Below, one piece after another: positions 47,732 through 55,800 of a DNA stretch of 64,000 nucleotides; the stretch's first letter is position 1, and each line of letters starts with the position of its first letter. The position numbers were made by a program, and so were the translations under genes. Source of the stretch: Ulota crispa (taxonomy: Eukaryota > Streptophyta > Bryopsida > Orthotrichales > Orthotrichaceae). The stretch covers positions 7,502,001 to 7,566,000 of the forward strand of contig OY987250.1 of the NCBI GenBank assembly GCA_963920765.1, written 5' to 3'. Below the pieces are notes generated by a model. It worked only from the letters and a program-made list of their open reading frames with translations, searched no databases and had not been told where the DNA came from.

Positions 47732-48457
47732 TTAACCCCTAAAGGACCACTTGTCCCCATGGGGGACAAATGGGATTTCAGGCATGTACTTATGGCTAAG
47801 TACTTTGTGTAATTTTTTGTAATTTTTATGGAAGATGGGGAATTCAAAGATCTATGTGGGCATTTGATTTTTTCCTCATTCTGATATTTATTGAAGAAGT
47901 TAAAAATGAATTTATGAGAATTTTAGTTCGGCGAGCAGCCCAAAAACCTCTTTAAAAGTTGCATTTTTTAAAAATAAAAATTTGAGGTTAGTTCTTTAGA
48001 ATTATGTATATGTGGGAAGCTTTGAATCATTCATTTCTAATTAATGAGATGAAAGTTATGCAAAGTTTTAATTTGAGGGTAGGTGTGGAAAATCTCAAAA
48101 CTATGCCTACACGCAAACTAAAACTTTGCATAACTTTCATCTCAACAATAAGAATTGAATGATTCAAAGCTTCCCACATATACATAATTCTAAAGAACTA
48201 ACCTCAAATTTTTATTTTTTAAAAATGCAACTTTTAAAGAGGTTTTTGGGTTGCCCGCCAAACTAAAATTCTCATAAATTCATTTTTAATTTCTTTAATA
48301 AATATCGGAATGAGGAAAAAATTAGATGCCCACACAGATCTTTGAATTCCCCATCTTCTATAAAAATTTCAAAAAATACACAAAGTACTTTAGCCATAAG
48401 TACATGCCCAAAATCCCATTTGTCTCTCGTAGGGACAAGTGGTCCTTTAGGGGTTAA
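47732..48457. mobile_element. TTAA-type foldback, 726 bp near-perfect hairpin
   Basis: Arms of about 340 bp (47732-48075 and 48115-48457) are nearly exact inverted copies around a ~35-base loop near 48080-48112. Ends TTAACCCCTAAAGGACCAC and GTGGTCCTTTAGGGGTTAA. The TTAA is the only visible target duplication. No coding frame is present. A transcript through it would fold into one long duplex. Confidence 0.85.
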
Positions 48458-48494
48458 TTTTTATCAATATTTACTGCAATAAACAGTTTTTAAA

Positions 48495-48897
48495 GGGAGT
48501 CGATATGCGCACACTGGGGTTGATATATGCACACCCCATGTGGGATAAACTATAGATTTATACCATCAAAAAGCTGAATTTGAGAATTTTGAATTTAGAT
48601 TTGGACTTAGAGACCATGATTTAGTCTAAAACCTTTAAGAAGGTTGCAATTGAACAACACCCAATGAAAAAAATTATATTTTTTTACAAACAAAAGTAAA
48701 AGTAACACTTTTCCCCCTAGCTAAGTTTTTTCATTAGGTGTTGTTCAATTGCAACATTTTTTACGATTCTACACTAAAGCATGGTCCCAAAGTTCAAATT
48801 TGAATTCAAAAATCTTAAATTCAATGTTAGAAATCTATAATTTACCCCTGAGGGAAGTGTGCATATATCAACCCTCGGTGTGCACATATCAATTTCC
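48495..48897. mobile_element. Foldback MITE, free copy of the one nested in CACTA
   Basis: Ends GGGAGTCGATATGCGCACA and, on the other strand, GGAAATTGATATGTGCACA. Arms AGAATTTTGAATTTAGAT / AAATTTGAATTCAAAAATCT and GTTGCAATTGAACAACACCC match the arms at 244-656. Confidence 0.7.
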
Positions 48898-51293: not shown

Positions 51294-52867
51294 GTGGCAT
51301 TTTAACAGCAAAAATCAAATGATTGTAGAGTAATATAGAGTTCTAGACAAAAAGTTGTAGTTCTTTCCCTATAACTCTCTTACGCAATCAGTACTTTATC
51401 AAATCTAAAAATATTTACATATTTGAAAAGCTTAGAAAAAGGGACTAATTGCATTAAAATTTGACTTATATTTAACTAAGAGAAGTGATAGAATAAAAAC
51501 ATTTGAAAAAAACATCAAGTCATGGTTTAAATGCTTTTAAATCACTACAAGTTCACCAATGATATATCACCAATACGTTCTCAATCTACTCTCAATGTAC
51601 ACTACAACAAGGTGCTTAAGTTGAGAAAAATTCAAGCTCTAAAAGGTGGTTAAAAGGCACAAAGATGTTGATGGTGTTGATAAAAGTTGATGAATATACC
51701 ATACTCAATTGTGCAAAATCACAATTGACATGGATTAAGAGCATGGTTTAGGAATGATCTACTCTTTAAAACTTAACACATTTATCCCCTTCAAATGTGT
51801 AATCACTTTTAGATTTGATGAAGAATTGAATGTATGGGAGGGGTTCGAGTGAAGACTATGACTTTCTGTTAGCGTCTCTGCTATTTGTGAACTTTTATTG
51901 CACTTAATGTGAAATTGAATTGTTTAGAGGTAGTCAAATCTAAATGGACAATGTTGACAATAAATTTGATCACTCACATGAAAATATTTCTTAGTTTTAT
52001 ATATCTAGAAAATAACATAAATATGAACATATCACTCTAAATATAACAATGGATTTCTGAAATCTCAAAAAGTTGCGACCGTTTTTTATTGAATGTTCAA
52101 CAATATCTACAACAAAATCATATGCCATAATAACGTTTTCATAAGAAAATTGAGTTTTGCTTTATAGATATTTCACAATGAAAACATTATTATTTTGAAA
52201 CCTCATATTATTATCAATGTGTCCATTGCTTACAATAGAACCAATAAATTGCAATAAAGATGTAATTGCTCTCATATTTATGTTATGTCAATGTTTGCCC
52301 ATTTAAAACACTTGCTTATTATATGTTTGAAGTGAGAAGAAAAAAAGTATATAACTTATTCTTTCTACATTGTTGTTAATATAGAAGTAGGAACAATTGA
52401 GTTTTTCCAAATGAACATCAAGTCACTTAGTAAATAAATCAGCAACCACAGATTGTACACTTCAATGATACAAAATACAACACTAACGTTCAATCAAAGA
52501 TTTTTGATTTTTCAACTTTGGAGTGCTCCAAGGTCACGTTCAATCCTGTTTCCCTTAGAACCAGCAAACATCCAAAAAGTGCTTGAACACAAAATGTATC
52601 TATGAATGAGAAAATCATGTTCTTCAACGAATGCTAGAGCTCAAAATTGAGTCACAGACGTTCAGATTATGGATCTAAATGATACCAACAATCGAAAAAG
52701 GAAAACTTCTCCATAAATCGCTACCTTGCAAGCACTACAATCCCAGCAGCAACAACGATGCATATCTGGAGACAACACAGGAATTCGTGGATGTATCTTA
52801 CTACTAGTCCTGCAGAGTCACCCCAAGCATGTGTCCTAGTTTGCCTTGTTGCCATGGCGTCTCCTCT
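51294..52867. other. AT-rich spacer and PGM 3' flank
   Basis: No gene or bounded repeat is recognised. The part next to 52868 is the probable 3' untranslated region of the minus-strand phosphoglucomutase. Confidence 0.45.
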
Positions 52868-55800
52868 TTAAGTGATAACAGTGGGCTCTGCACGGCCAGT
52901 AAACTCCTTCATCTTCGACAGCTTCAAAGCTACCTCCACCTGACCATCCCACACGATTTGCCAATTTCCTTGTCAATTTCAACAATTATTTATCGGGAAT
53001 TACTACCGCGACACCCCAAATTGCTAACGGAACACAACTGTGAGCACAAAATTTGATAATTTAGTGCTACTTTTGATTTATTCAAGTGGTCCATCATTCA
53101 TTCAATCACAACATTACCACCTCCTTGAAAGAAAACAAGACAAATACAAATTTTTGTTGAAATATTATTGCACCAATATTATTTTTTGATGTATGTTTGC
53201 TTTAACCCTTAAAGGACCATAGGACATAGTATATAAGCTGTCGTATAATTGGCATTTGCTACCAAAAAGAAGTTTTAATTTGGGATCTCCAGTAGCTCAC
53301 TAGAACGGCTTTGATCTATTCTCCAACTTCTTTGTTGATTTCAACTGTAGTAAAGGTGTGAATCTAGTCCAAATACAAAAAAAACACCTCATATTCTACT
53401 GGTTGCACCGGCACGCTATGTCCTTTAGGGGTTAAGTAACTCAAAAGTCTTATATATTTAGTTTCAAATTTAAGCACACCTTTTTTTTTTAAGTATAGAC
53501 TTAGAATGATAAAGTGAAACAAACCTTTTGATACAAATTAAAAAATCAGCATTAAAAATCACATTTCATGCTCACAGGGGGTGTCCCATTAGCAATTTAG
53601 GGTGTTACGGTAGTAATTCCCTTATTTATATAGATATTTTAAATTGGTACTCAACAACCAAAAACTCATGGCTAGAAAATGAGCATATCGGATCAAATTT
53701 AATATCACTAGGATCGGTAAAGAAAATTGCAAAGGTCGATCAAAAAATAATGAAATTTTGACATACAGACGTAACTCCGTGACCTACTCAAAAAGTGCAA
53801 GATAACCTCTGGTTAGGGCTCCTCCTAGGGATTAAGAAAAGGCAGGCATACAAAATACCAATAAGCTCTTCGAGATTTTTCTGAGAAAGAGAGGTGAGTT
53901 TGAAAGAGATGAGGAAGGTAAGCTTACAAGAGGAGCCAAAGCTTCGGCGGAGGGTTTGAATGTCTTGGTGGGATCTGCTTCGTACTGCTCAATGTACAAG
54001 CGAACTGTGGCTCCAACGGAACCCGTTCCAGAGAGACGAAATACCTACAGGAAGGCAGAAGAGTCTCATGATCCATAAGAGTTGTAATAATAAAAAACCT
54101 TACTGTACTTATAGTTGTAATGAAAAAGCTAAATCCAACAAAAAGGTAACATACCAGGCGAGAACCATCCTTGAAGAGGTAACGGATACCCTGGTGACTA
54201 GACACAGACTGGTCCACTGGGTCCTTGTACTCAAACTCGTCCGCTTCCTTTACCTCGGCAACATCCGGTCTTATTTCCTTGATCATGCTATGGAGAACAA
54301 AGAAAGTGCACTTCAACCACTGAATCGAAAAGAAAAGAAAAGGAAAAACCCTCGTTCTCTAGCAAGAAAATATATATTCGTAGTGGTAGCATAGCAATTT
54401 TTCAAAGCAGCGCTGATTCAGAGTTAATTAAAGCAGAGTCATGCAAACCAAGCAAAAGCAAAGCTTAGACCTACTCTTACAAGTAACGTCAATGGCGAAC
54501 TGACTTGAGGAGCTCTCAATTTTGTTCAAATTGAGCTCAGCTTTGCAAACAAGGTGTCTGGGACTCCTTTTTCATGGAAGACAACGTTTCTTTAGAACGC
54601 TATGCGGACTGAACTACTATTTGATTACTGTTGACCTAGCAAGAGAAATTTAGGACTTACGCATTCACATCACTGAGCTTGGATTGAAGATCAACGAGAT
54701 GAGCCATAAGTTTCTTGGCAGCGTCAGCATCCACATTCTGGTTGCAATCAAGAGAACGGTGAGAGCAGATTTGAAGGTATTAAGAAAATCAGCTCAAAGA
54801 TAAATCAAGGTACAAAAGCAAGCAAAACATGTAATCACATGCTTTCTAGAATTGGATGAGACCAAACCTCGTAGTCGTAACGTGTGTAGTAGTGACGACC
54901 GTAGGTGTTCCAATGCTCAGTAACAATCTCCTCCACTGTCACCAGCTTGTCACCACCAGCCAGCTTGTTCCTGTGGGCCAAGATAGACAGCCACGCCAAC
55001 ACGGCCCAAATTCCATCCTTCTCTCTGATGTGATCAGAACCTACAAAATCAAGCAATACCTTTTCAACCCAAATAAGCAAAGAAAAAAAATAAAAAACCA
55101 AAATAAAACCAGCAATTTTTTACCCCTAAATACAGCAAAGTTGTACTTGCCAGTGCAAAATTCTGTAAATTTTAAAAGACTCTCCATTTGAAGAGTTAAT
55201 ACCTGTTCCAAAGCTCTCTTCACCGCACACGGAGCACATGCCAGCATCCATGAGATTACCAAAAAACTTCCACCCGGTTGGAACCTGACAAAAAGCCCCA
55301 TACACGGCAACACTGGATAAGCATATCCAAGCAGTAAGACATGCTCGATGTACTCGTGAAGCATGTTCCGAGATACAAAGTTCTGAATGAGATTGAATTG
55401 CAAAAGAGAGGAATCAGAAAAACTTGGTTTAAGAACAAGGCCATTGGTACAGTTGAATAATAACCTGCTTACCTCAAAAAACTTCAGCTTCAACTTCTGA
55501 GCCACTACATCCAGAGCAGCTGATGTGGGCATACTCCTGCAAACTCGCTTGAATAAGAATTTACACACAATGTGCACTATTCAAAAATGCCTATGTAGCA
55601 ATACAAATTTCAGCGCACACACTGAAAATACCAATTCAGATGAACACCAACGAATATTGAACAGAAAATTAAGAATAACAAAACGAAATTAAATAAGCGC
55701 AGCACCTACCTCGCCACTCCTTTAAGACCACCATTGAAATAGGGAATGGCACCAACTGCGTTGGCGGCAATGATGGCTACCGAATCTGATGGAGTCACAA

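Follow-up and report, generated by a model that had tools for sequence, protein, structure and literature searches.

TTAA-flanked miniature elements of probable piggyBac type and their transposase-bearing relatives in the genome of a photosynthetic host

The 64,000-nucleotide stretch analysed here (contig OY987250.1, positions 7,502,001 to 7,566,000; hereafter the window) harbors six short elements bounded by TTAA and CCCYTAA-type termini, and our analysis makes it very probable that these are non-autonomous miniature piggyBac transposons, moved by the transposase of full-length elements in the same genome. The elements have their termini in common, one of their families shows homology to a transposase-bearing element (E12) at both ends of the latter, a duplication of four base pairs accompanies insertion, and a paralogue of one occupied site carries a single TTAA. 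An earlier note on this DNA had proposed that a TTAA-specific transposase, of piggyBac or another type, may exist elsewhere in the genome, and one was found: a profile search with PF13843 (DDE_Tnp_1_7, the piggyBac transposase domain) yielded 120 rows of matches in this genome (best E 1.3e-73) and no match in 14 control genomes, and E12 carries the same termini as the window elements.

Miniature elements in the window and across the genome

The six elements lie at 26779-27667 (889 bp, with the ends TTAACCCCTAA...TTAGGGGTTAA), 35102-35335 (234 bp), 47732-48457 (726 bp), 49681-50615 (935 bp, plus strand), 53202-53435 (234 bp) and 61105-61481 (377 bp), and all are present where the earlier note had placed elements of 230-935 bp. 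The TTAACCCYTAA start that it had described is exact in all six, whereas the mirrored end is exact in only four, each of the other two having one decayed end: 35102-35335 ends in TTAG in place of TTAA, and the right end of 61105-61481 is mutated (TTAAGGATTAA) and reads TCCTTAA inside its TTAA. The termini thus start with CCCYTAA at six of six left and five of six right ends, and terminal inverted repeats (TIRs) beginning with CCY are a feature of the piggyBac superfamily. We counted 11 exact ends in the window (6 left and 5 right, the right end at 18710 lying outside the six), compared with about 0.4 expected per window from the genome-wide reversed-pattern control described below. Reading the flanks of all six revealed no direct repeats beyond TTAA, as had been claimed.

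The interiors differ in general, also as claimed, with the exception of 35102-35335 and 53202-53435, which belong to one family (80.6% identity over 201 bp, in opposite orientation). The element at 47732-48457 is a near-palindromic foldback, with 90.6% full-length identity to its own reverse complement, and the one at 49681-50615 is an internally deleted relative of E12. With lengths of 234-935 bp, TIRs at their bounds, many copies and homology to a transposase-bearing type, the elements have the properties of miniature inverted-repeat transposable elements (MITEs).

The window is one sample of a much larger population. The genome, of 274.8 Mb, contains 45,955 matches to TTAACCCYTAA (22,957 forward and 22,998 reverse), compared with 1,627 (810 + 817) to the reversed pattern, which served as background; about 44,000 CCCYTAA-type ends therefore stand above the control genome-wide, and MITE ends occur about every 6 kb. 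For the family of 49681-50615, 40 near full-length copies were scored out of 2234 first-look candidates, with identities of 81-100% when the query is included, and eight aligned copies, which are the best matches to the window copy among those 40 and include the window copy itself, differed pairwise by 5-14% (mean 10.8%). In three places (L042:5947-6915, L092 and L105), elements of the group directly abut and have one tetramer in common, either TTAA or a decayed form of it, which is expected if the flanking TTAA of an element itself serves as a target.

Transposase-bearing elements and terminal-repeat lineages

The search for a DDE_Tnp_1_7 transposase with matching termini, which the earlier note had suggested, led to E12 (C5:10867266-10873011, minus strand), an element of 5746 bp that carries TTAACCCCTAAATGCC at both ends, of the TTAACCCYTAA type, and the transposase domain inside. 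E12 starts with TTAACCCCTAAATGCCTAAAGC and its other end, read inward, is TTAACCCCTAAATGCCTAAGGG, so that the TIRs are alike at 19 of 20 bases. One stop within the domain divides its frame into pieces of 368 and 155 amino acids; the longer piece matches PF13843 (2.6e-59) and, among PDB structures, piggyBat 9c0f (1.7e-16) and piggyBac 6x67 (3e-13). The motifs VDE, MDNFF and GVDVADQ are preserved in the protein, and the aspartates at what we take to be the positions of the three motif aspartates are all present. The C-terminal tail, where members of the piggyBac superfamily carry a cysteine-rich zinc-binding domain, appears rich in cysteine and histidine by eye, and at an E threshold of 0.1 PF13843 was the sole Pfam match.

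The homology of the window elements to such copies extends beyond the termini most clearly for 49681-50615, whose bases 378-935 match E12 5193-5746 at 85.6% (E 2e-159) and whose bases 1-206 match E12 1-205 at 64.6% (E 1e-19). A match to both ends of E12 is the expected remnant of an E12-type element after internal deletion. Besides, the left part of 26779-27667 shares three short stretches (37-57 bp, 79.6-91.9%) with E40, another transposase copy; they are located inside the CCCCTAA end of E40 and downstream of its transposase domain.

When the surroundings of 30 of the 120 transposase rows were screened, the end motif was not found within 1.5 kb, a null result that does not count against the link, since elements with both ends placed measure about 5-7 kb and their ends would lie further out. 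Longer stretches were examined around 14 transposase copies, and termini were placed for some of them. Pairwise comparisons support these boundaries: E12 and E44 are homologous in four blocks, from 8 bases inside the left end of E12 to 3 bases past their common right TTAA, and the homology of E44 to E12 begins at 5714, where its TIR is lost. Position 4665 was also considered as the left end of E44 and was rejected, as it is paired with the other end of a distinct MITE of 941 bp, whose left end it forms. Moreover, the homology between E42 and E46 runs in blocks between 295/2152 and 5950/9240; it starts and stops at TIR ends (CCCATTA/YCCTTTA type), and E42 has a decayed outer tetramer on the right. 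Loci L009 and L018 are 90.5% alike over 4 kb, with homology lost one base past the right TTAA of E39.

In a tree of the 14 copies, two clades, each with support 1.0, bear on the termini. The first joins E12, E44, E40 and E26, and a CCCCTAA end is present in three of its four members (E12, E44 and E40), no end having been placed for E26; the second joins E41, E42 and E46, whose ends are of the CCC[A/T]TTA type. This comparison of tree and ends uses a single end each for E40, E41 and E44. Matches to TTAACCCWTTAA, which represents the ends of the second clade (CCCWTTAA), number 3,692, compared with 264 in the control. A 388-bp element of the window, at 43478-43865 (TTAACCCATTAA...TTAATGGGTTAA), carries ends of this second type, like the left ends of E42 and E46, and its bases 177-283 match part of E42 at 76% (a 109-bp match). 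These data support separate piggyBac lineages with separate MITE swarms, the second swarm being counted by its ends only. On balance, and with some reserve, we favor the view that this is a green-plant lineage in which piggyBac is a dominant DNA-transposon force, with several transposase lineages, their own terminal-repeat dialects and their own MITE swarms.

The same data bear on the proposal that another TTAA-specific superfamily, such as Kolobok or Sola3, moves most of the MITEs and that the piggyBac termini resemble them by convergence. Both superfamilies use TTAA, and four of the six window elements lack a demonstrated homology to a transposase-bearing copy, which would leave room for such a mover; however, the TIR type follows the clades of the piggyBac transposases and both ends of E12 are homologous to one large MITE family, and on these grounds, with a transposase search made for PF13843, we regard this proposal as very improbable.

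A further piggyBac-domain gene was observed at C1:1180709-1181995 (in L043), in which both matched parts are stop-free and a 563-amino-acid frame is open. The gene is split by about 270 bp with stops, which could be an intron, and it may be a functional or domesticated copy.

Target-site duplication and the proposed mechanism

The assignment of the elements also depends on the length of the duplicated target. The element 53202-53435 sits inside a repeat, and its joined flanks match (85%) an unoccupied paralogue, C5:17372394-17372642, that has a single TTAA at the junction, although this paralogue may never have been occupied. The joined flanks of 47732-48457 align across the junction at two places, neither with a clean TTAA, and these were dropped as empty sites. 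TTAA sites alone cannot separate a duplication of TTAA from one of TA, and sites other than TTAA were examined for this reason. A copy of the 49681-50615 family (L070) has CTAG on both sides. In addition, a genome-wide pattern with CTAA on the left and a gap of 195-225 bases between the end motifs matched 43 elements, of which 40 were read; the right flank was CTAA in nine and TTAA in 31, compared with a right CTAA in 61 of 2583 elements with TTAA on the left (Fisher p 5.8e-7, or 1.1e-4 after correction for the TTAA/TTAA elements, which the pattern hits twice, once per strand). The same pattern also picked up 35102-35335, as C9:7537102-7537335. Four of the 31 one-sided elements (L088, L099, L101 and L108) have a common right flank, like copies of a larger repeat, and counting them once would make the contrast stronger. 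The flanks of the nine CTAA/CTAA elements and of the CTAG copy indicate that the outer base belongs to a duplicated unit of four bases; a TTAA target that is exactly duplicated is a feature of the piggyBac superfamily.

These observations are difficult to reconcile with Tc1/mariner (Stowaway-like) MITEs, which would have duplicated TA, preferred TTAA and carried the termini ACCCYTAA. Because TTAA is palindromic, occupied and empty sites look alike whether TA or the full TTAA was duplicated, and the TTAA sites by themselves suit either reading. However, the outer base is duplicated in the CTAG/CTAG copy and in the 9/40 elements with CTAA on both sides (vs 61/2583), so the TA-only duplication expected of Stowaway is not what was found, and the homologous full-length element encodes PF13843; on this evidence, with PF13843 as the transposase family searched for, we consider a mariner origin highly unlikely. 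PIF/Harbinger (Tourist-like) MITEs with a 3-bp TTA or TAA duplication deserve still less credence: Tourist elements are common in plants and use TTA/TAA targets, but a 3-bp reading makes the termini asymmetric and, in the same PF13843-based search, E12 with its PF13843 domain is the homologous full-length element.

Several observations weigh against the piggyBac assignment, or against activity at present. Stops interrupt 110 of the 120 PF13843 rows (10 are stop-free) and the reading frame of E12 itself is broken, so that, judged from these frames, present transposase activity is doubtful. CCCYTAA is found at both ends in only one (E12) of the 14 transposase copies examined; the left TIR of E44 is lost, and for E40 only the end other than the left one was placed, for E26 neither. 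Since MITE ends occur about every 6 kb, a transposase with a lone CCCCTAA end in its vicinity (E40 is an example) could owe that end to a neighbouring MITE. Homology beyond the TIR is good for one of the six window elements and consists of short blocks for a second, and the remaining four are tied to transposase copies by terminal repeat and TTAA only. With respect to the target, a clean TTAA is missing from two (L068 and L071) of the three paralogues found for the site of 53202-53435, so the single TTAA that the earlier note had asked about at empty sites was seen at one paralogue of the three, and 31 of the 40 elements with CTAA on the left are most simply one-sided mutations.

The piggyBac reading, which we consider by far the most probable, would entail the following course of events. 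A DDD transposase would have been made by full-length piggyBac elements (about 5-7 kb) of the same genome and would recognize a terminal repeat of roughly 12-20 bp, for which the scored consensus is TTAA CCCYT WAADGMCCAAGG. The element would then be cut out and inserted at a TTAA, with duplication of those four bases. The family of 49681-50615 was probably born by internal deletion of an E12-type element, and the other families, which retain the terminal repeat and differ in their interiors, were presumably moved in trans. Members of the piggyBac family move by cut-and-paste through hairpin ends and rejoin the donor site precisely at TTAA. We infer that one transposase type moved all families and that the chemistry was of this cut-and-paste kind.

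Host, window neighbourhood and comparison with known systems

The claim that these elements reside in a plant is supported indirectly: the chlorophyll a/b-binding family has 56 matches here, which in a genome of 274.8 Mb we take to indicate a photosynthetic eukaryote; among the 14 controls, only a cyanobacterium matches this family.

Apart from 43478-43865, two other elements of the window are additional to the six of the earlier note. At 18515-18710 lies a truncated MITE relic with the right end TTAAGGGTTAA at 18710 and an interior that resembles 35102-35335 and 53202-53435; no left end was found for it. At 49320-49523 (plus strand), directly upstream of the intact copy at 49681-50615, a decayed partial copy of the left part of that family starts with TTAGCCTCTAAATGCCC and is 75% identical over 207 bp.

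The window also contains repeats and gene pieces of other kinds. Near-perfect arrays of a 21-bp unit are found at 1251-1722 and 14368-15484 (22.6 and 53.6 copies, 98-99% matches), and both are flanked by the same open-frame start (MCICTFSSGLENVLRLWSV) on opposite strands, as in a dispersed repeat with an expandable minisatellite. A further 21-bp minisatellite at 4799-5941 (54.5 copies, 84% matches) overlaps with a minus-strand open frame of 213 codons (5395-6036). A Pfam scan of six window gene pieces, made for description of the neighbourhood only, gave a protein-kinase match (PF00069, 4.7e-10, in 9558-10556) near open pieces at 7489-10556 that by eye resemble an MPS1/TTK-type kinase, and open pieces at 21987-24020 correspond to a UDP-sugar pyrophosphorylase-like gene, with PF12804 and PF01704 under curated cut-offs.

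The group to which we assign the elements is best known from animals, and piggyBac is a major genome-engineering tool. In plants, to our knowledge, endogenous piggyBac elements are generally considered rare. Among the matches listed in the open-licence literature, as represented by titles and the starts of abstracts, with subscription papers and repeat databases outside that scope, there was no report of piggyBac MITEs in a plant; a moss paper that came up there merely uses the word 'piggybacking'. A plant whose genome combines diverse piggyBac lineages with a very large MITE swarm offers natural material for studying the co-divergence of transposases and terminal repeats, the handling of these elements by plant silencing, and the question of whether plant cells restore a clean TTAA upon excision. 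Besides, TTAA-flanked MITEs of plants could be misfiled as Stowaway or Tourist.

The piggyBac element of Trichoplusia ni and piggyBat of Myotis resemble the elements described here in their TTAA target, 4-bp duplication, CCC termini and DDD transposase. In contrast to them, the present host is photosynthetic, the coding part of E12 is broken by a stop, and the TIR varies by lineage (CCCCTAA, CCC[A/T]TTA, CCCCTTG and CCCCTCA). A piggyBac-derived MITE family, the CMITEs, has been reported in corals, and its interiors are described as more conserved than its TIRs (PMC2872659), whereas here the TIR is common and most interiors differ. Plants are named among the sources of piggyBac in one paper (PMC10813416), and PiggyBac is listed among the superfamilies present in all taxonomic groups of one survey (PMC4438587). 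The repeat tables of two land plants apply the PiggyBac label to small amounts, namely 1230 copies and 122 kb in Ceratopteris (PMC6890710) and one copy of 75 bp in Stipa (PMC8319324), compared with the 120 transposase rows and about 44,000 MITE-type ends of the present genome. Overall, the occurrence of piggyBac in plants is as such not new, and what is unusual in comparison with these systems is the host together with the size of the swarm.

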